A DNA stretch of 64,000 nt from Bradyrhizobium ottawaense (lineage in GTDB: Bacteria > Pseudomonadota > Alphaproteobacteria > Rhizobiales > Xanthobacteraceae): the NCBI RefSeq assembly GCF_002278135.3, contig NZ_CP029425.2, positions 744,001 through 808,000 of the forward strand. The letters run 5' to 3'. The position numbers were made by a program, and so were the translations under genes. This document shows positions 37,637 through 49,619 of the stretch, piece by piece. The notes under the pieces are model-generated. The model was not told where the DNA came from. It saw only the letters and a program-made list of their open reading frames with translations, and made no database searches. Every line of letters starts with the position of its first letter. Within the stretch, counting starts at the first letter, position 1.

Positions 37637-38357
37637 GGCCGCCGGCATCACGAAAATCTTCGGGAAGCTCACCGCGCTCGACGGTGCTGCGCTCAGCGTC
37701 GGCGCCAACGAATTCCACGGCCTGATTGGCCCGAACGGCTCCGGCAAGAGCACGCTGATGAAGTGCATCGCCGGCGCCGAGGTGCCGACGCAGGGCAAGG
37801 TGTCGTTCGTCAATACCGACATCACCGCCTTCACGCCGACCGAGCGCGCCCGCGCCGGCATGAGCCTGAAATTCCAGATCACCAGCGTGCTGCCGTCGCT
37901 GACGCTGTACGACAACATCCTGCTCGCGCTGCAGGCGCAGTCCTCGCTGGTCGACCTCGTGTTCTCGCGCACGAGAGCCGCGCTGCACGACCAGGTCATG
38001 ACCATGCTGACGCAGTTCCGCCTCGCGAATCGCGCCTTCGAGGCCGCAGCGGCGCTGTCGCACGGCCAGCAGCAATGGCTGGAGATCGCGATGGCGCTTG
38101 CCGGCAAGCCGAAATTGCTGCTGCTCGACGAGCCGACCGGCGGCATGAGCCTGGAGGAGCGCCGCGTCACCGGCGAGCTGCTTCAGCCGATCAAGCAGCA
38201 TTGCTCGCTCGTCATCGTCGAACACGACCTCGATTTCATCCGCGACATCTGCGATCGCCTCACCGTGCTCGACCAGGGCAAGGTGCTGGCGTCTGGTACC
38301 GTGTCCGAGATCCAGGCCAACAAAGCCGTCCAGGAGATTTATCTGCGCCGTGCCTGA
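37626..38357 (+). CDS. LIV-type ABC ATP-binding protein (LivG-like) of the amide locus
   Basis: A 243-aa ATPase from ATG 37626 (MLLEAAGITKIFGKL). Walker A LIGPNGSGKSTLMK, signature LSHGQQQWLEIAMAL and Walker B KLLLLDEPTGGMS are intact, and HGLIGPNG plus KFQITSVLPSLT are typical of LivG/UrtD. The chosen start overlaps the permease by 11 bp; a longer in-frame reading from 37590 is unlikely. Confidence 0.93.
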   Translation: MLLEAAGITKIFGKLTALDGAALSVGANEFHGLIGPNGSGKSTLMKCIAGAEVPTQGKVSFVNTDITAFTPTERARAGMSLKFQITSVLPSLTLYDNILLALQAQSSLVDLVFSRTRAALHDQVMTMLTQFRLANRAFEAAAALSHGQQQWLEIAMALAGKPKLLLLDEPTGGMSLEERRVTGELLQPIKQHCSLVIVEHDLDFIRDICDRLTVLDQGKVLASGTVSEIQANKAVQEIYLRRA

Positions 38358-39045
38358 ATTTTTGGACATCAGACATCTCGATGCCGGCTATGGCCGCAGC
38401 CAGGTGCTGTTCGACGTCACCCTCGGCATTCCCTGGCGCGGCGGCGTTGCCGTGCTCGGGCGCAACGGCGCCGGCAAGACCACGCTGATGAAGACCATCG
38501 TCGGCGAATTGCCGGCGTGGAAGGGCGAGGTCGCCTTCGACGGCCGCGACATCAGCCGCCGCGCCACCCAGGAGCGGGTGCGCGCCGGCATCGGCTACGT
38601 GCCGCAGGAGCATTCGGTGTTCGCGCGCCTGTCGGTGCGCGACAATCTCGCCGTCGGCTCGCTCGCGAGCAAGAAGGCAGACGCGGTCGACCAGGTGCTG
38701 ACCATCTTCCCGAAGCTCGGCCAGCGCCTCGACCAGCCCGCCGGCACGCTGTCCGGCGGCGAGCGCAAGATGCTCGCGATCGGCCGCGCCATGCTCGGCG
38801 ATCCAAAACTGCTGCTGCTGGACGAGCCGACCGAAGGCGTCTGGATCGGCGTCATCGAGGAGATCACCGAACGCCTGATCGAGCTCGCCAAGAGCATCGC
38901 CGTCATCATCGTCGAGCAGCACCTCGACCTCGCGCTGCGCGTCGCCGACTACGCCTACGTGCTCGACCGCGGCCGCGTCGCGCTGCAAGGCGAGGCGGGC
39001 GAGGTGCGGGGCAATCCGGAGCTGATGCGATATCTGGCGCCGTAG
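38350..39045 (+). CDS. LIV-type ABC ATP-binding protein (LivF-like) of the amide locus
   Basis: A 231-aa ATPase with GTG start at 38350, overlapping the LivG-like gene by 8 bp. Walker A VLGRNGAGKTTLMKTI, signature LSGGERKMLAIGRAM and Walker B KLLLLDEPTEGVW are intact. YVPQEHSVFARLSVRDNL is characteristic of LivF/UrtE. It closes the operon; a dispersed repeat follows directly. Confidence 0.93.
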   Translation: MPEFLDIRHLDAGYGRSQVLFDVTLGIPWRGGVAVLGRNGAGKTTLMKTIVGELPAWKGEVAFDGRDISRRATQERVRAGIGYVPQEHSVFARLSVRDNLAVGSLASKKADAVDQVLTIFPKLGQRLDQPAGTLSGGERKMLAIGRAMLGDPKLLLLDEPTEGVWIGVIEEITERLIELAKSIAVIIVEQHLDLALRVADYAYVLDRGRVALQGEAGEVRGNPELMRYLAP

Positions 39046-39095
39046 AGTGTCACTTGCCACCAGCTCCAAACCCCTCGCAACGCGCCCTTCAGTCC

Positions 39096-39226
39096 CGTCA
39101 TCCCGAGGTGCGAGCAGCGCGATGCGTAGCATCGCGTAGCGAGCCTCGAAGGATGAACGGCCGAGCTGTCAGTCGGGCCGTCGCCATTCGAGGGCCGCTG
39201 AAGAAGCGGCCACCTCAGGGTGACGA
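39096..39226. repeat. Intergenic repeat, family 3, copy 2
   Basis: Runs from CGTCATCCCGAGGTGCGAGC to CCACCTCAGGGTGACG with GCCTCGAAGGATGAACGGCC and GCCATTCGAGGGCCGC inside. It lies between the convergent transporter operon and the gene at 39271 and can form a long imperfect hairpin. Confidence 0.7.
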
Positions 39227-39270
39227 TCAGAGATTGTCGATCGAGGGGGACCGGCACGAAAGTCGAGCGG

Positions 39271-39792
39271 TTACTTCACCGCCCCAAGGCCGCCGCACCT
39301 TTCAATGGCGGCCCGCCAGCCGGCCGCATCGATCCTGGGAAGTTGGTAGCTCGTCGTCCTGCTCGAAATCGTCAGCGGCGACGCTCTCTCCATCAGGCCG
39401 AGCAGGCGCGCCTGGGCCCGCTTCCAGCGCTTGCCGAACAGCTCCGGGTCCGGCCTCGAGTAGCCCAGATCCCATTGGACAAAATTGGTCGCGTCGTCGT
39501 CGGCCGAAATCTCCTCGAATTCGCCAGCGAGCTTGATTGACTTGCGGCCGTTTCCGATCGTGATCGTTGCCTTTCCGGCGCGGCCGGCCTCGCCGGGATA
39601 TCTTGCATGCAGGCCCAGAGCGCGTCCGCAGCCCAGCATGAACGTCACCTTGCCCTGATCCCTGTAGCTCAGCGAGGGAAGATCGCGATTGTCGAATTCC
39701 AGCTTCCAGCTTCCCGCAGCGAGAGAAGGAGCCGTCAGGAGAGCCAAGGCAGGTGCAACGGCAAAGGCAAGGCCGGCGGCCTTCATGGTCAC
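39271..39792 (-). CDS. Exported protein of unknown function (cluster gene 4)
   Basis: A 173-aa protein with a clear signal sequence (MKAAGLAFAVAPALALLTAP, cleavage after SLAAG). The mature part has a beta-rich pattern (SWKLEFDNRDLPSLSYRDQG, KVTFMLGCGRALGLHARYPG, KATITIGNGRKSIKLAG) and two Cys. I do not recognise a family. It overlaps the zinc-ribbon gene upstream by 4 bp (ATGA), so it is coupled to it and is the last gene of a four-gene minus-strand run. Confidence 0.8.
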   Translation of the reverse strand: MTMKAAGLAFAVAPALALLTAPSLAAGSWKLEFDNRDLPSLSYRDQGKVTFMLGCGRALGLHARYPGEAGRAGKATITIGNGRKSIKLAGEFEEISADDDATNFVQWDLGYSRPDPELFGKRWKRAQARLLGLMERASPLTISSRTTSYQLPRIDAAGWRAAIERCGGLGAVK

Positions 39793-40517
39793 GTCCTTCG
39801 CGGGTTCGGAACGATCTTGATGTGCCGTGCGATGGCTTTGAGCAGCTCCGGGTCCTCGACCGCGACCGGCGGCGGCGGCTTGCCCTCGAGCGCCTGGCCG
39901 ATCGTATGTCGCTGGTCATCCCTGGCCGCGATCTTGTCGCGATGGAAGGCAACGATCTCGGCAAAGGGATAGTCCAGCTCTTCAGCTGTCAATTCGGCGG
40001 TCAGCGCCTCGGCGGCTTCCCAGCTCGATGCCCGTCGCAGCACGTCGAGCAGCAGCAAGCGGGTATCGATCGAGGTGATCCGGGGCCTCTCGAGATGACC
40101 GGCGGCTCTGAGGCGGAGTGCAGCCGCGTCGGACGGCCGGTTGCTGTCGTCGGCCACCCATGCCGCCGACAGCGTGCTCAGGAACGCCGATCTCCGTTCT
40201 CCGTCATAGGCGTGCTGCGCGGCGCGCACCAGGAAGCGGCGCGATACCGGGTCGGGCGCTGGGTCGAGCGAGGCGGCGCGGAATTCGGCGGTATCGAGGA
40301 AGCTCCGCGCCCTCGCATCGCCCTTGTCGATGCTCGGGGCGACGTAGCCGCAATAGGGGCATTCCTGCAGCCAGCTTGCGATGGTCCAGCGGTACATTTT
40401 CGGCGGCCTCTGGTCGAGGTCGCGCGAGCCGAACGAGTTCGAGCTCATCAGCACGGAATGCTCGGAGGTCTTGCCGCAGCAATGGCATTGCAGCTTCCTG
40501 GTGTCGTAATCTGTCAT
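39789..40517 (-). CDS. Zinc-ribbon protein of unknown function (cluster gene 3)
   Basis: A 242-aa protein starting MTDYDTRKLQCHCCGKTSEH. Two knuckles, CHCC near residue 11 and CPYCGY near 51, form a probable zinc ribbon like that of DUF2225 proteins. The rest is helical and TPR-like (FLVRAAQHAYDGERRSAFLS, ALRLRAAGHLERPRI, EAAEALTAELTAEEL). No signal peptide. Start ATG 40515-40517 is the first Met before the conserved ribbon; the frame is open far upstream only because it shadows the TPR gene. No assigned function. Confidence 0.8.
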   Translation of the reverse strand: MTDYDTRKLQCHCCGKTSEHSVLMSSNSFGSRDLDQRPPKMYRWTIASWLQECPYCGYVAPSIDKGDARARSFLDTAEFRAASLDPAPDPVSRRFLVRAAQHAYDGERRSAFLSTLSAAWVADDSNRPSDAAALRLRAAGHLERPRITSIDTRLLLLDVLRRASSWEAAEALTAELTAEELDYPFAEIVAFHRDKIAARDDQRHTIGQALEGKPPPPVAVEDPELLKAIARHIKIVPNPRRT

Positions 40518-40528
40518 CCGAGGTCCAC

Positions 40529-41641
40529 CTACGCTCCCCATCGCTTTCGCAGATTGTCGCGAAACGTCTCCGACGCCTGGACCAGCGTCTCGAGCACGCC
40601 TCTCTGACTGCCGCCGTAGAGCACCTTCCGGTTGCCGGCCATGTCCAGGATGCTGCGACGAAAGATCGGCTTGCCGGCATCGAGGAAGGTCCGCAGCACC
40701 GCGAAGCCCCGCTCCAGGACCGGCTCGGCATCTTCCACCCGTTCGCGCGCATACCCCGTGGCGAGCTCCGCCAGGATCCAGAGCAGGGCCGCAGCGTCGT
40801 CTCCATAAGTCCGCTCGCAGATCTCCAGCAGCCGCTTCAGCAAAGGCTCGGCCTTCCAGAACTCTCCACAGTCGAGATAGGCCGATATCATGGCTTCGAG
40901 AGCCTTCTGAACCTCCAGGCTGTCGGGTCCAAATCGTTCCTCGATGATGTCGAGACCGGACGCGAAGGCGGTCACGGCCTTGCGCAGACTCTCGAATTTG
41001 GTCCCGTGTCGCTGCAGTTTGCAGGAATTGGCATGGACGATGGCGGAGGTGAGCAGCGTCCGGGCCGCTTCCTCGCTTCTCTTCCCGAATATCTTCTCTT
41101 TCAGACGCAGGCTGCGCAGCAGATTCGTCTCGGCGTCCGCCCATTTCGTCAGGCGCGCGCCGATCTCGGCGAGCGTGTCGACGGCGGCGGCCACTTCGAT
41201 GCTGACGGCGCCGTGGACCTTCTCGAGGATCGAGATGCTGCGCTCCAGAAAAGCCCTGGCGCGGGAATAATCTCCGGCGGAGGCCCATTTCCGGGCGATG
41301 GCTTCGCATTCCTCGGCGGCCTGCCAACTGTGCTCGCCGGAGAGCCTGGTCCTGATAGCCAGCCGCCGCAGCTGAAACGGCTCGACCAATTTGAAGTCGA
41401 CGCGGCCTGCATGGCCGATCCATTCATCGAGGTCGCCCAGGATGGACTGCGGCCCATGCAGGCTCTCCTGGATCGAGATGCAGCGGTCGAGAAAGGGGAT
41501 GGCTTCGACCGGGTCCTCGCTACGACAGATCAGCTTGATCAGCGTGCGCAGGGCTGTGACGACCTCGTCGCTGATCGGACCGTGGCGCTTTTCCAGCCCG
41601 GCGATGTGTCGAAGGTGGTTCTCTGCGTAGAAGGATGCCAT
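40529..41641 (-). CDS. TPR repeat protein (cluster gene 2)
   Basis: A 370-aa cytosolic protein made of helical repeats of the kinesin-light-chain TPR type. Repeats are visible around residues 45-60 (EAIPFLDRCISIQESLHG), 125-140 (RARAFLERSISILEKVHG), 167-182 (DAETNLLRSLRLKEKIFG) and 260-276 (KAEPLLKRLLEICERTYG). No catalytic domain is seen. It lies 11 bp upstream of the zinc-ribbon gene. Such proteins usually act as scaffolds; nothing here gives the partner. Confidence 0.85.
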   Translation of the reverse strand: MASFYAENHLRHIAGLEKRHGPISDEVVTALRTLIKLICRSEDPVEAIPFLDRCISIQESLHGPQSILGDLDEWIGHAGRVDFKLVEPFQLRRLAIRTRLSGEHSWQAAEECEAIARKWASAGDYSRARAFLERSISILEKVHGAVSIEVAAAVDTLAEIGARLTKWADAETNLLRSLRLKEKIFGKRSEEAARTLLTSAIVHANSCKLQRHGTKFESLRKAVTAFASGLDIIEERFGPDSLEVQKALEAMISAYLDCGEFWKAEPLLKRLLEICERTYGDDAAALLWILAELATGYARERVEDAEPVLERGFAVLRTFLDAGKPIFRRSILDMAGNRKVLYGGSQRGVLETLVQASETFRDNLRKRWGA

Positions 41642-41667
41642 GGACCGCTCTGTTCAACCTCGGCCGC

Positions 41668-42108
41668 TCAAAGCCGCATCCTGGCGAGTTTTTCGCCGCG
41701 AGTCCGGCTCGGTCGTGAGCCGAATGCCTTGCGGCACAGCGGCCCGAAGGCTTCGATGGATGCGAGGACGCCGGCGCCGACATCGGCGGGCCTGGCCTCG
41801 AAGGTCTTGACCCGCCCGTTCTGACCAACGATGGCGGTCACGTCGCAGAAGAAATCCTCGCGCCGCTCGCCTTGGTCGGCTGCCTCGAAGGAGGCCGTCG
41901 TCTTCATTCGCCAGTGATAGGCGCGGTCCTGGTCCTTGCGGCCGAAAGGGACGATCTGATCGGGGTGGCCGTATTTCTGCATCAGCTCGACGATGGCGGT
42001 GCCCCTGAAATCGTCGCGTGGTCCCGCCAGCGCGTGCTGGTCCGCGACTGCGACCGCCGACAGAACGAAAAGAAAAATCACCGTACGAAGGAAAGTGCGT
42101 TGCAGCAT
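41668..42108 (-). CDS. Exported protein of unknown function (cluster gene 1)
   Basis: A 146-aa protein whose start is ATG 42106-42108, giving the signal sequence MLQRTFLRTVIFLFVLSAVA with cleavage around DQHALAG. The mature part (IVELMQKYGHPDQIVPFGRK, YHWRMKTTASFE, CDVTAIVGQNGRVKTFEARP) resembles small periplasmic or lipoprotein-like domains, and LMQKYGHPD looks like an SmpA/OmlA-type helix. It is first in the four-gene run, 26 bp before the TPR gene. The frame open to 42471 includes part of a repeat and is not coding upstream of 42108. Confidence 0.78.
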   Translation of the reverse strand: MLQRTFLRTVIFLFVLSAVAVADQHALAGPRDDFRGTAIVELMQKYGHPDQIVPFGRKDQDRAYHWRMKTTASFEAADQGERREDFFCDVTAIVGQNGRVKTFEARPADVGAGVLASIEAFGPLCRKAFGSRPSRTRGEKLARMRL

Positions 42109-43146
42109 GCCTTGGGCTCTATCGGAGGCAGTCGAAAGATATCTGATTACGTCCTGGCAACGCGGTTTGCACGCGCAACTTTCGGCCGAGCGAGAGGCGC
42201 TGGCGAACGATGCGGGGGGCCGCTCGCGAAATTGCCGGATAGCGCTTCCCGCCTTCGCTCTCCGAGCTACGGCTGACACCTCGCTCATCCGGGCTGCGCT
42301 CACCCGCTCCGGTTCTTCCAGTGTCAAACAGCCGACATGACATCGCGATCCCGCAGCGCTTTTCGCCCGGGTTTTGCTTCGCTTCTGGCGCCCTTCGGAA
42401 TCGGAAGGGCGCAGGGAAGGCCGGGTACCGGCTGGCACCCGCGAGCCCCTGTGCAATGATGCGTAAGTCAACGCTCACAGGGGAGACACAGGTGCAGCCC
42501 GATAACCGGCCTTCCCTGCGCAGTGGTTTGACGGCTTATGTCGCGCTCTCCCCGGGGAGCGATGCACTCTTGCCCCCGTCGCCTCGCGAGATCGCTGATG
42601 TGCGCTACCCGGTCGGGCACGCACACCACCGCGGAGACTTGACGCCAGCCTGCGGGCGCCAGGACCACACGATTTTGCCGTACGCGGCCCCGCTTCGCCC
42701 TTCGGGCTTCGCAGGGCATGGCCGCGCTGTCGTACCGCGCCCGCTGATCGCTCACGGGGAGACCCCGCCCTGCGACCGCACCTGGCGCCAACACCGCCCG
42801 CGTCCACCGCAACTCACCCCACGAACCGTGACGATCGCGACCCGCCCCTTCCGGCGGGATGAGATGGCGTGGGAGTATAGGGTGTGTCGCGGTTCGGGTA
42901 AAGAGAAAATATGTATTATCCGAATTATACTCCTTCGAAGGCCAGAAAAGGCTACTCTCGCTTGTCATATCTTCCGGAGTTGACTGTAGCTGCTCAAGCA
43001 TTTCGTGCAGCTCTTCTTATGCGCCCAATACGGGGCGTCTTCCCCCCGCTGCGACCTGCACGTCGTGATGATCGATCATCACCGTGGAGCTGCCTCTAGC
43101 GCGATGTACTCGCTATCCCCAATCGTTAACGTGTGCCGGTACGTTG
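42109..43146. other. Gene-free region with a large intergenic repeat
   Basis: 1,038 bp. About 42330-42870 is a dispersed repeat (listed separately). From about 42890 to 43146 base composition shifts toward AT and no gene is recognisable; the open frames here have neither family resemblance nor ribosome sites. The shift marks the right-hand accessory segment. Confidence 0.6.
42330..42870. repeat. Large dispersed Bradyrhizobium-type intergenic repeat
   Basis: I recognise from memory a ~550-bp repeat found many times in Bradyrhizobium and related genomes. Landmarks are GCGAGCCCCTGTGCAATGAT, GCGTAAGTCAACGCTCACAG, CAGTGGTTTGACGGCTTATG, CAGGACCACACGATTTTGCC and TTCGTGACGATCGCGACC-like ends. Long open frames across it are artefacts of its composition. 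Only one copy is in the window, so the multicopy claim rests on prior knowledge. Confidence 0.7.
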
Positions 43147-43524
43147 TCATCGTGGACTATTCCAATTTGCATCCCCGCACGGAAAGGCTTGGATTAGCGC
43201 AAGTCCAAGTATAAGCGCTGCGTCCGTATGCAGTTTCTGCGGATTCTCGCGAAAATATTGCTTAGCAATCAAGCGGCCTTGGGTAACAGAGATTGCCTGT
43301 TCCTGGGGTGGGCAGTAGGCACTAGCGCCCAATGCTTCCCTAATGCCGATACCGGTGGTCATACCTTCCAGAAAACCGCGCATGTAAGCATTGCAGAACA
43401 GGTCCCCGGCAGAATCGTTCTTTTCATTGCAGGCTTGATAAAGCTCTGCTCCGCTAAGAGCCAATGCGCGTTGTGGTTCATACAGAAGCATCAACGACGC
43501 TACCGCAGCCAGTCGAAGCCTCAT
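43147..43524 (-). CDS. Rap1a/Tai-like immunity protein, exported
   Basis: A 125-aa protein with signal sequence (MRLRLAAVASLMLLYEPQRA, cleavage near LAL). The mature domain follows the Rap1a/Tai plan: SGAELYQACN, FCNAYMRGFLEGM, then C-x-P-x-x VTQGRLIAKQYF, HTDAALILGLALIQAFPC, with four Cys for two disulfides. Rap1a-type proteins neutralise type VI secreted amidase effectors in the periplasm. No effector or T6SS gene is nearby, so it may be an orphan. It sits 26 bp downstream of the truncated reverse transcriptase on the same strand. Confidence 0.75.
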   Translation of the reverse strand: MRLRLAAVASLMLLYEPQRALALSGAELYQACNEKNDSAGDLFCNAYMRGFLEGMTTGIGIREALGASAYCPPQEQAISVTQGRLIAKQYFRENPQKLHTDAALILGLALIQAFPCGDANWNSPR

Positions 43525-43550
43525 CCTTTTTCCCTCAGTCTACCGGTGCC

Positions 43551-44165
43551 CTAAAACGGCATATCGTCCGCCATTTCGTCAGGCCTGCTTGCATTTGATG
43601 CCACTTCGCTTTCGACCCTTGCGCTGAGGTTAGGCGCGCCTTGCGGAAGTTCATTGTTATGGCAAGCGATCTGAGCGATTACGGTCGCAACGTCGGCATG
43701 AAGTTTGAAGTCATTATTTTTGATTAAGTACCCTCGTACTCGACCGAAGTTTATCGTTGGAAAGAAGTCTTCGAGGTCGGCGTTGAGGACATATCGGCTT
43801 TTGATGTGCTGGTGCGCATTCGTGATGATGGACTGCGACTTTCGAAACCCGTGCGATAGTGGTTTCAGCTTGTGAGCTGAATCGATCTCTGCGCGACATT
43901 CATAAAGGATCGTAGAGAGATGGCGTTGAAGCGTCTTAAGTCGATCGATAGGGGCGCTAATCGTACGAACGCCTCCCGCTTTTTTCGGGACCGCAAAAAC
44001 AGTGTACTTCGAAGACGGAGGGATTTGATGGACTATGAACGCAAGCGCGCTCGCCCTATAGCCTAGCACCTTAGCGAGATCGCTAAGGGACTCTGCATTT
44101 TTCAAATCATCTAGAACGCTCAATAGACCGCCCAAAGGAAGAAAAAAATGTGAGCTTACGGGCAC
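43551..44165 (-). pseudogene. Retron-type reverse transcriptase, truncated before YxDD
   Basis: Up to 204 codons. Residues about 15-175 follow retron RTs: LKNAESLSDLAKVLGYRASA, VPKKAGGVRTISAPIDRLKT (RT1), HGFRKSQSIITNAHQHI (RT2), YVLNADLEDFFPTINFGRVR (RT3 with first catalytic Asp), and NELPQGAPN (RT4). The homology stops there, and the YxDD motif, thumb and template-recognition region are absent. The final ~20 residues (VESEVASNASRPDEMADDMPF minus the first) look unrelated and end in an SSB-like acidic tip. The GTG at 44165 lies inside the inverted repeat, so the real start is probably a TTG near 44135 or 44123. Not catalytically competent. Confidence 0.85.
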
Positions 44166-44293
44166 TCCTTAGCGAGCGATCATTGCATCCCATGTTGTAA
44201 ACCATGGTAGCATAGTCCTGTAGTCTGAAGCATTCGCCTCTGACCTTTTATCTCACGTTGCGATAGCGCAACAAAAAATCTGCCCGTAAGCTC
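44152..44293 (-). ncRNA. Candidate retron msr-msd RNA bounded by a1/a2 repeats
   Basis: A perfect 13-bp inverted repeat, GAGCTTACGGGCA (plus 44152-44164) and TGCCCGTAAGCTC (plus 44281-44293), encloses 116 nt directly upstream of the retron-type RT on the minus strand, where a1 and a2 are expected. Inside are a hairpin GTTGCG-ATAG-CGCAAC (44257-44272) and an imperfect CCATG/CATGG hairpin (44190-44207). A diagnostic branching-G context was not proved, so this is a positional and structural call. Confidence 0.5.
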
Positions 44294-44401
44294 GCTTGTA
44301 ATCTAAGGGTGCATCTTGAAAGGCAAGGCTTGCGCCGAGAGCGCCTCGGTAATTCTTAGTAGGTCGCGCCCTGGTGGTCTATGATAATGAAGAGCGCATT
44401 T

Positions 44402-44805
44402 TTAAGGGGGGACGATTTCGAACATCTGCGCATGGTTTCGAAAGAGGCGTCGAACTCGACATCTGTCGCTCCTCTCTTCAGCGACGTCGACCTCCCGTTT
44501 CATGAGCCAAAACGGCGTGCGTTCGGCCGGCACCAACGAGTCCTGATAGTGCGCCAGGGGTTTGTAACCGCTGATCCATTGCGCGCCCAGCACGTCCAGG
44601 ACTCCCCCAGAGATGCTCTGGAGCTTGCGTTCGATCGACCCTTTAGATCGATGCACGGTCGTCATGAGACGACGCCGGTTGTCAGCCTTGCTGTGATACC
44701 CGCCTTTTCGGAGGCCAACATTCGGAAATAGCTATCGACCACGGCGGAGATTTCAGTCTCCGTCCAAGGCGTCCCTGAAATGCCTTCGATCTGCTCGGGG
44801 TCCAA
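44402..44805 (-). pseudogene. Decayed DUF3883 (NO VEIN C-terminal) domain gene
   Basis: Read on the minus strand, one frame gives GTPWTETEISAVVDSYFRML followed by ASEKAG, then stops. A shifted frame from about 44695 continues KADNRRRLMTTVHRSKGSIE and RKLQ...LGAQWISGYKPLAHYQDSLV, and then jumps directly to PAERTPFWLMKREVDVAEER and LFRNHAQMFEIVPP, the end of a DUF3883 domain. Intact relatives, as I recall them, have about 100-200 residues between the last two blocks, so there is one frameshift and one internal deletion. DUF3883 proteins are common in restriction and defence islands. Confidence 0.7.
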
Positions 44806-44934
44806 GCTTCTGCCTCTCGAACCCGAAGCGTATCAAGAGATCAATCGGGCGCAAGGTTGGCACTAGGAGCGCAGCAGCGAGCATCCTCCGCTTGCGCGGA
44901 TAATGACGGTGTCAGCTCGGCTATATCGAGGAAA

Positions 44935-44954: not shown

Positions 44955-46562
44955 CTACTTCACCGCCCCAAAGCGGCTGTCGAACGAGTTCGACGAGATC
45001 ACCGGTGCGGCGCCCATGATCTGCGTCGCTTCACCGGCACCATCGCTCACCGACGGCTTCAGCGCCGGCCGCGTCTGGGCGAGGCGGGTGTCGGGCTTTG
45101 CCGGCTCGGCAGGCTTGGCCGCGACGGCCGGCTTCGGCGCGTCCTTCGCCGCTTCCTTTGTCGCTTCCTTGGACTTGTCATGCCCCGGCACGAACCGGGT
45201 CACTGCGGCCTTGAGCCTCGACGCCGCGGTCGGCGGCGTCGTGGTCGTGGTGGCCGGGGCCACGGATGCCGTGGCTTGCGGCGGCGGGGTGGTCGCGGTC
45301 GTGTCGGATGAGCCCATGCCCATCTTGCGGCCGAGGTTAGAGAAGAAGCCACCGGACTTTTCAGCCGGCGCGGCGGTGGCGACGCGGGCGCTGGTCGCGG
45401 GGGCGCTGACGGCGACCACCGGCTCTTCCTGCGGCGCAGGCGCGGACGCCACGGAATCGAGGTTCGGCTTGGGCGGATTGACGTGTCCGGGGATCGTGCC
45501 CGGCGCCTTCGCCATCGCCAGCATCTGCAGCGTGGTGCCTTCGGCGCCTTCCGACAGGCCGGTCGAGCCTTCCGGAATCTTCGCGGCAAAGATCTTGTTC
45601 ATGCCGCCGTCGATGCCGGTGTTCATGCGCGCCACCGGCGTGCCCTTGGCGACGAGCTTGGCGTATTCCGCCTCGTCCTTGGCCTGCTTGCCCCGCACGG
45701 CGGCGACGACGTCCTCGGGGATCACATAGGCCGGGCACTTTGCCGAGGCGTCGAACACCGGATCGCGCTTTGCGTCCGCGGGCTTCGCCGCGTCGAAGAC
45801 GTACTTCTTCTCGCAGAAATCGACCTTCGGCTCCTGCCGCGTCACCTCGAAATGATCATAGCCTTCCTTGATCATCTTCCAGAACGGCATGTTCGGATTG
45901 TTCCGGTGCTTGGCCATGTTCACCGGCGTCATCTTGAACGGATAGGCCTGCAGCTGGAACGCCTTCTGGCCGCCGAAGAAGGATTCGCGCCCGAGCGAAT
46001 AGATCTCCGCGATCTGCTCGTCCGTCATCGCGTAGCAGCCGCGCGAGGAGCAGTCGCCATGCACCATCAGCTGCGAGCCGGTGCGGCCGAGAGCCTTGTC
46101 GAACGCGTTCGGGTAACCCGTGTTGAAAGACAGGTAGTACGCCGATTGCGGATTCATCTGGCTCGGGTTGATCGAATAAAATCCCTCCGGCGCCTGGCGG
46201 TCGCCTTCGCGCACCTTCGGTCCGAGGTCGCCGGACCAGCGGCAGATCGGATAGGTCTTGAGCAGAGCGAACTGGCCGTTGCGGGCCTGCTTCCAGACCT
46301 CGAGCTCGGCCTCCTGCTTGAACAGGCGCACCAGGATCGGCGACTGCAGATCCATGTCCTTCTCGACCATCGCGGCGAGAAGCTTTGGCGGCACCGGCTG
46401 GTTGGCCTTGGCGTTGGTCGCGAGCGAGACCTGGTCGGTATCGCAGCCGGCCAGCAGGACGCTGGCCGTCATCAGCGCGACCGAAGCCAAAAGCGCGCGA
46501 GCAAGCGAACGAGAAATCAAGATGGACCCCACACCGTGCCGGGCAGAAAGCGCGAACCCCAA
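44955..46562 (-). CDS. L,D-transpeptidase (YkuD domain) lipoprotein
   Basis: A 535-aa envelope protein. Residues 15-40 are a lipoprotein signal (LLASVALMTASVLLAGC). The YkuD domain at about 60-260 has the catalytic Cys in MVHGDCSSRGCYAMTDEQIA and resembles the YafK branch (VRLFKQEAELEVWKQARNGQ, YPNAFDKALGRTG). After ~290 comes a long Ala/Pro/Thr-rich region with low complexity (TATTPPPQATASVAPATTTT) to the C-terminus. It probably makes or edits 3-3 cross-links or attaches proteins to peptidoglycan. Start could also be a GTG about ten codons in. Confidence 0.9.
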   Translation of the reverse strand: MGFALSARHGVGSILISRSLARALLASVALMTASVLLAGCDTDQVSLATNAKANQPVPPKLLAAMVEKDMDLQSPILVRLFKQEAELEVWKQARNGQFALLKTYPICRWSGDLGPKVREGDRQAPEGFYSINPSQMNPQSAYYLSFNTGYPNAFDKALGRTGSQLMVHGDCSSRGCYAMTDEQIAEIYSLGRESFFGGQKAFQLQAYPFKMTPVNMAKHRNNPNMPFWKMIKEGYDHFEVTRQEPKVDFCEKKYVFDAAKPADAKRDPVFDASAKCPAYVIPEDVVAAVRGKQAKDEAEYAKLVAKGTPVARMNTGIDGGMNKIFAAKIPEGSTGLSEGAEGTTLQMLAMAKAPGTIPGHVNPPKPNLDSVASAPAPQEEPVVAVSAPATSARVATAAPAEKSGGFFSNLGRKMGMGSSDTTATTPPPQATASVAPATTTTTPPTAASRLKAAVTRFVPGHDKSKEATKEAAKDAPKPAVAAKPAEPAKPDTRLAQTRPALKPSVSDGAGEATQIMGAAPVISSNSFDSRFGAVK

Positions 46563-48249: not shown

Positions 48250-49619
48250 CTAGGGCATGCACATATCTCTGAGGCTCCATCCTGCTGCGACGGCGTTGAA
48301 GTATTCGAGGCCGTTTTTGAAGGTGATCGGGCCCGGCGGCTTGGACGATGGGTAGCCATCCCACCCGCCGAGACGGCCGATGATCCAGGCGGCCCAAGCG
48401 AGACTATCGGGCGGATGTGGGTTCTTTAGTCGCTTGCTCGCGGCTTCGAGTTGCCGGTTGAGGGCTGTGAGCGCGCCAATTTGGCCGTTGTCGAAGGCCG
48501 CGAGAATGGGCTGGCGACCACCATTGCGGGCCTGCAGAAGCTGGATGGTGATGACGGCCGCCTTGGCGGCGATCGCAACCAGCTTGAGAAGCCGATCGGC
48601 GGATCCGATCTGACTGTCTTCGAGCTTGAGGCCTTGTGTCTTCAGGATGCGGAAGAACTGCTCGATGATCCAGCGCTGCTTGTACCATTGGACGATGCGC
48701 CAGGCGTCCTCGATGCTGGTGACCTCGTGAGAGGTGAGAAGCCGCCAGTGCAGCGGCTCTATGCCGGTTTCGGCGTTAATCTCGCGCACATCGACCACCG
48801 CCAGCGGCAAGCTTTTCGGCAGATGGTGCAAGAACTTATTCTGCGGGCGGGCGAGCTCGATTGCGCCAAAGCGAAGTTCGAGGTGGGCCAGGCGAGCCGG
48901 CCGCGCGGCGCGCGCAGGCAGTTGGATCATACGCTGGTCCACCGCGGCCATGGCATCGCTGGCCTCATACAGGCTGCTGCGGTCGGCAAGCTTGCGATCA
49001 TGCATGCTGCGCGCGATGACGTGGAAATGTTGCTTGGCCGAGCTGGCATAAAGGGCAAAAATATCGCTCTCGCGGTCACCCAGCACCGTCACCGCCGCGG
49101 CCTTGGTGAGCAGCGGCCTTGCCGCCACGGCAGTCGATATCCAGCGTTGCGATTCCTTGTCCGATAATTCCCGATCATCATGCGAGGTCGTGCGGCGACC
49201 TGCGCGCGTCCATATCTGCCCGCTCAAAAGCCCAAGACAGCTGCCGTCGTCGGCGTCCACAGCCAGCAGCGGGTGCAGCAGCACGCCGTGGTTATTGCCT
49301 TTGCCGATTTCTCCGAGCCCGCGCCGGCGTTGCGGCGTGGTGTTGAAGTGGATCTCGCTGGTGTCCTGGATGGCCAGCACGTGGCGGCCTTCCACGGCAG
49401 GGCCCGTGCTATTGCTCCAGCTTTCGATGATCCGATCCACCGTCACCTTGTCATGGCCAAGAAAGCGGTTGAACCGCACTTCCAGCGCGCGGTTCCCCCT
49501 GGAGAGCTGCCGAAGGCAGACAGTTTTGCCCGCAACCATGCGTTCAGCGAGCGCCGCCCCCCTTTATCGAGACGACGATCCCCGAACCGGCCCAGCGTCC
49601 AGTCAATCCGTGACAACAT
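48250..49619 (-). CDS. IS4-family transposase, copy 1, requires -1 frameshift
   Basis: Frame one starts MLSRIDWTLGRFGDRRLDKG (ATG ending at 49619; an ATG 15 codons upstream is also open) and reaches a G6 run (plus C at 49557-49562). The main 429-codon frame is reached by a -1 shift there, restoring AALAERMVAGKTVCLRQLSR and a ~456-aa protein. Catalytic residues are D in LAIQDTSEI, D in VLGDRESDIF and E in the YKQRWIIEQFFRILKTQG signature. Either slippage at AAAGGGGGG is used, or both copies are dead in the same way. The 429-aa product alone lacks the N-terminal DNA-binding part. Confidence 0.85.

Follow-up and report, generated by a model that had tools for sequence, protein, structure and literature searches.

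A probable fossil of a type I-C retron, with an intact ncRNA beside a truncated reverse transcriptase, in Bradyrhizobium ottawaense

Introduction

The described system that the locus reported here most resembles is Retron-Eco2 (Ec67), of type I-C. According to the portion of PMC12405507 used here, Eco2 msDNA and the RT-Toprim protein form a self-inhibitory trimer, the Toprim domain acts as an RNase upon activation, and Toprim pieces are toxic when expressed alone. The same portion names an NAXXH motif for Eco2, gives rG15 as its branching guanosine, and describes the RNA as held mostly by the palm and thumb. By analogy, an intact copy of such a retron would produce a structured ncRNA together with a fused RT-Toprim protein; its RT would prime on the guanosine after a1 and copy the msd part into msDNA, and the trimer of msDNA and protein would inhibit itself until a phage trigger switched on the Toprim nuclease. 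Among the titles and abstract beginnings searched for orphan, truncated or degraded retrons, no paper addressed this point.

Here we describe a locus in 64,000 nucleotides of the Bradyrhizobium ottawaense genome (the window; GCF_002278135.3, contig NZ_CP029425.2, positions 744,001 to 808,000), in which an earlier note had proposed a truncated retron reverse transcriptase (RT) next to a preserved RNA. We find that it is very probably a recently inactivated type I-C retron, the fossil of a defence system. Its features, in coordinates of the window, are as follows.

44281..44293, minus strand: a1 arm, 13 nt, perfect complement of a2; the arms covary in relatives
44280, minus strand: conserved G directly after a1, the invariant G14 in the alignment of relatives
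44152..44164, minus strand: a2 arm, 13 nt, perfect complement of a1; the arms covary in relatives
44152..44293, minus strand: complete type I-C retron ncRNA (msr-msd), a1 to a2, from covariance model R1
43632..44123, minus strand: what is left of the RT, 164 N-terminal residues running from the likely TTG start to LPQGAP, based on profile and sequence matches
43551..43631, minus strand: unrelated 26-residue tail and stop past the break, with DNA unlike the five relatives tested
44402..44806, minus strand: remains of a decayed NOV_C-domain gene next to the retron, from PADLOC PDC-S36 and likeness to locus L107
39046-44949: insertion hotspot, bounded by an ABC-transporter-like gene and a YkuD gene

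Results

The reverse transcriptase is cut just before its catalytic motif

The minus-strand ORF at 43551-44165 encodes the N-terminal portion of an RT-Toprim retron protein of type I-C (Ec67/Eco2-like). It matches the PADLOC RT-Toprim_I-C profile over residues 16-178 (E 9.2e-75), and the same residues align with residues 5-168 of the solved Retron Ec67 protein 9lm3 (E 2e-43). The NCBI Ec67 family model NF038237 scores 240 bits, below its cut-off of 450, which is set for the whole protein. The earlier note had staked its reading of this frame as a truncated retron RT on such a profile match, and the reading holds. The translation carries the NAXXH motif as NAHQH, and the type I-C RT domain is recognizable from only the first 164 residues of the protein. 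The listed GTG start at 44165 adjoins a2; comparison with the uninterrupted relative L004 points to the TTG at 44123 as the likely start. From there the frame stays open for 190 residues, comprising 164 retron residues and the 26-residue unrelated tail.

Homology ends at LPQGAP, 30 residues ahead of YADD in L004, so that YADD, VTG, the thumb and the Toprim domain are absent from the broken locus and about 400 residues of coding sequence are lost. Neither YxDD nor VTG occurs in the three minus-strand frames over approximately 1.6 kb downstream, and the sole YxDD over 3.6 kb is a YGDD about 2.8 kb away, inside another gene. A tblastn search of 38001-43632 with the remaining part of the L004 protein found nothing at E up to 1, which together with the three-frame scan rules out a continuation of the RT in another frame. 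Compared with five relatives, the DNA past the break scores no better than shuffled sequence from about 10 bases after the LPQGAP codons onward (best score 22; shuffle 95% points 23-24). The tail also contains MADDMPF, which MAFFT placed under YADD; given those scores, we regard this as a chance likeness.

A C-terminal Toprim effector is likewise without a match at the broken locus. In the whole genome, a profile built from six Toprim sequences gave a single match at E 1e-5, in a second, uninterrupted retron. Since no second copy of the missing part exists apart from that retron, the missing part is gone rather than displaced. The truncation is shared by no other genome among 195 Bradyrhizobium sampled, and the sequence downstream of the break matched one of 175 genomes, the source genome itself. 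Just after the broken retron, at 43147-43524 (minus strand), lies an ORF of the Rap1a immunity family, with no DNA match in 174 other genomes of the genus.

The upstream ncRNA is complete

Directly upstream of the RT ORF, a perfect 13-bp inverted repeat encloses exactly 116 nt, and the ORF follows directly on its 3' side. This arrangement, read in the earlier note as an msr-msd layout, was confirmed, with arms at 44281-44293 and 44152-44164. The G at 44280 is, by its position, probably the equivalent of the Eco2 branching guanosine. With short flanks (44148-44300), the RNA has a folding energy of -61.6 kcal/mol, whereas shuffled sequences average -37.9 (z -6.6), and none of 200 shuffles folded as well.

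We compared 86 upstream stretches, those of 85 relatives' loci (some of them duplicates) and that of the window. In 71 of the 86, the best inverted repeat has the same layout, with arms of 11-15 nt spanning 123-151 nt and lying 10-48 nt ahead of where the RT match begins; the arms are perfect in 54 of these 71. The other 15 stretches had no inverted repeat, or a best one that was implausibly placed, and were set aside. Covariance model R1 was built with the window excluded, from 69 relatives with some fitting repeat that were cut by hand to 47. Most of the 22 omitted relatives had mismatched or doubtful arms, and six combined perfect arms with divergent sequence (L036, L054, L058, L076, L080, L084); six with one arm mismatch were retained (L015, L021, L033, L051, L059, L079). 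In these 47 relatives, double-sided changes that keep the pair occur at 17 of the 20 consensus pairs, a count that describes the cleaner relatives because of the selection by hand. The arm pairing and covariation in homologous loci that the earlier note had looked for are thus both present.

Model R1 matches the window over its full length (positions 1-140 of 140) at 84.4 bits (E 1.4e-16). This is near the lower end of the scores of the trained relatives searched (81.4-121.5) and exceeds all six untrained ones in that search (84.2, 79.3, 78.5, 78.1, 62.7 and 48.5 bits). Together with the repeat layout seen in 71 of the 86 stretches, this score is far more than chance would give. Upstream of three plasmid genes annotated "retron Ec67 family", the model likewise matches the RNA, at 95.4, 82.4 and 67.5 bits. 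Of the covariance searches, the one with R1 bore out the expected retron RNA, while Rfam 15 did not: no family reached its gathering score in the window, and none matched 44100-44350 at E up to 10. The window RNA keeps all 20 model pairs and departs from none of the 26 columns with conservation of at least 90%; with the looser 80% threshold, 4 of 41 columns differ, where the relatives' median is 3. It thus has the upstream position, a1/a2 arms, conserved G, stem-loop and covarying structure of a type I-C retron ncRNA.

The retron lies in an insertion hotspot

On one side of the retron, an ORF assigned by eye as ABC-transporter-like ends at 39045; on the other, a YkuD gene starts at 44955. Among 15 stretches from 14 relatives, the flanking genes are at most 175 bp apart in eight; the spacing is 0.8 kb in one, 1.7 kb in another and approximately 5.9 kb in two stretches of genome G028, and three do not extend to the ABC side. 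Here it is 5.9 kb. Because the flanking genes nearly adjoin in eight of the 15, the retron sits in an insertion hotspot. Both G028 stretches share 39289-42191 with the window and nothing of the retron.

The neighbor of the retron is also broken. PADLOC PDC-S36 matches residues 4-46 of an 87-residue ORF at 44402-44665, and 44440-44525 and 44531-44806 resemble locus L107 of genome G033, where they fall within an uninterrupted 283-residue NOV_C frame. The segment 42314-42924 is a repeat some 610 bp long: the query 42000-43625 has matches in 194 of 195 genus genomes, and among the matches listed for that query all but the window itself fall within the repeat, which also occurs in the same hotspot of G033 (L107). 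Near the hotspot, an open 429-residue frame at 48250-49539 (minus strand) encodes a DDE_Tnp_1 transposase.

Broken copies recur in the genus, and the genome holds a second retron

Across the 195 genus genomes, the RNA model found 17 places in 16 genomes. RT-Toprim is uninterrupted at 12 of the 16 assessable loci, which gives the full RT and effector that the earlier note had suggested looking for in related strains. It is broken at the other four: the window, G129, G124 and G024. G129 (L129, G129:C8:212603 onward) retains the ncRNA with RT sequence up to residue 123, and no Toprim match was obtained in that genome. In G124 the frame breaks just before YADD, with an uninterrupted 395-codon frame containing Toprim after the break, and in G024 Toprim is split over two frames. 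In G117 the locus is split over two contigs, with the RT piece in two frames and no Toprim match in the genome; its RT-Toprim is probably broken too, making five of 17. In 397 genomes of the order and 385 of the class, searched with stricter filters that lose some weak matches, there were four and five further RNA places outside the genus, one of them weak (31.3 bits); the frame is interrupted in tblastn at two of these nine (L135, L137). Scraps of the 3' end of RT-Toprim genes were found in G014 and, near a contig start, in G155. Since Toprim pieces are toxic alone, Toprim might be the part lost first in breakage; in this sample, G124 keeps a Toprim frame after its break and G014 and G155 keep 3' scraps.

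The second type I-C retron of the source genome, at C1:8099981-8101766 (8.10 Mb; L002, L113, L140), has an uninterrupted 597-codon frame and its own upstream ncRNA. Its RT-Toprim (C1:8100123 onward) could in principle reverse transcribe or bind the orphan RNA in trans, giving a second msDNA sensor or a decoy. The broken locus and this retron are the only two RNA-model matches in the genome at E up to 1, and the orphan RNA retains every pair and every element conserved at 90% or more, the presumed priming G included. However, the RTs share only 46% identity over 167 residues, and the RNAs are unlike each other in the inner a1/a2 and the first stem-loop. A retron RT is, as a rule, specific to its cognate RNA. 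A sigma-70 promoter scan, which has little power in this genus, found no site, against 1.0 expected by chance. That the second RT uses the orphan RNA is possible but unsupported, and we consider it very unlikely. The regulatory form of this idea, in which the RNA is a second template or decoy for a divergent RT-Toprim and one toxin stands under two msDNA sensors, seems just as improbable.

The break appears to be recent

Among 80 aligned RTs, the window is unchanged at all 41 positions with conservation of at least 90%; with the threshold at 80%, 3 of 55 positions differ, against a median of 2 in relatives. Between the window and L004, dN is 0.235 and dS 2.3 (ratio 0.10), with synonymous sites at or close to saturation (pS 0.71-0.85 among the pairs computed). 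Such sites cannot isolate the time since the break, so dN/dS was replaced by a count at conserved sites. The targets, approximately 134 in all, are the nonsynonymous sites of the 41 conserved codons, sites elsewhere at which a change would create a stop, and the 26 RNA columns. No change was seen in any of them, which at the 5% level caps the neutral divergence accumulated after the break at about 0.022 per site, a rough bound that assumes all target changes to be neutral after the break. We infer that the break is recent. With so low a bound, about 2%, an intact RNA is expected even without a separate function.

The fragment retains few of the RNA contacts named for Eco2 in the portion of PMC12405507 used here. 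In the alignment to 9lm3, F46, R56, K66 and R70 have identical equivalents, and R184, K245, R247, T249, S253, R264, H281 and Q329 lie beyond the break. This tally covers the named residues, and other palm contacts could fall in the retained part. With the named contacts mostly beyond the break, DNA synthesis by the fragment can be excluded by analogy with Eco2, and stable RNA binding by it would be unlikely.

These results bear on whether the truncated RT and the ncRNA form a domesticated RNA-protein module, selected for another use. The ncRNA is intact and the ORF is open over its 190 residues from the likely start with none of the 41 conserved residues changed, in keeping with such a module. 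However, the truncation occurs in no other sampled genome of the genus, most named contacts are lost, and the G129 break, at residue 123, differs, leaving two truncations without a common length; the age bound also makes selection unnecessary. We consider domestication even less probable than use in trans. Of the two outcomes offered in the earlier note, the fossil of a defence retron is therefore supported, and the module kept for another use draws no positive support: the truncation is confined to one sampled genome, the named contacts lie mostly beyond it, and a recent break explains the intact RNA. The least credible reading is an assembly or sequencing artefact in a retron that is in fact whole: the G124 frame break, with the rest of the gene downstream, is the kind of change that sequencing error can make, but here about 400 residues are gone rather than a frame broken, the genome is a single 8.59 Mb contig, and the missing part is matched elsewhere only in the second retron.

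Discussion

The locus is most likely an ordinary, well-preserved fossil of a known kind, the type I-C retron. In the source genome, the 3' part of the gene would have been lost from just after LPQGAP, taking with it the catalytic YADD, the thumb and Toprim, and the ncRNA and 5' gene fragment would be residues that have not yet had time to decay. With these parts lost, the broken locus alone should make no msDNA and has no effector; we infer that its function is lost, and by analogy with Eco2 both msDNA production and phage defence by this locus alone would be expected to be absent. The broken NOV_C neighbor, the hotspot location and the other broken copies in the genus favor the fossil reading. 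Against it, the retained RT part shows no signs of decay, as continuing selection would also give, and the same genome holds an uninterrupted type I-C retron whose RT could in principle act on the orphan RNA. The break also cannot be placed on an undeleted sister strain, as no sampled genome shares the truncation or the downstream sequence.

The locus cleanly illustrates the death in situ of a defence retron. Because an intact RNA does not show that a retron works, surveys based on RNA can count dead copies, here four of the 16 assessable genus loci, or five of 17 with G117. The new type I-C covariance model detects such copies, including this one, to which Rfam 15 gave no match. Were the second retron to use the orphan RNA in trans, this would be a new kind of regulation.

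Among known systems, the locus resembles Retron-Eco2 (Ec67) and type I-C retrons in its N-terminal RT sequence with NAXXH and in an ncRNA that has a1/a2, a G after a1, a single short conserved stem-loop and a variable region. It differs in that the RT lacks YADD, VTG and the thumb, and in that the Toprim domain is absent. The second retron of the same genome (L002) is more distant, with an RT 46% identical over the shared 167 residues and an RNA that differs in the inner a1/a2 and first stem-loop. The closest relative found is the retron of Bradyrhizobium sp. CSS354 (L004/L008), which has the same a1/a2 and RNA layout and an RT 69% identical to the fragment over 167 residues; in contrast to the broken locus, its gene is uninterrupted, with an open frame of 563 codons.
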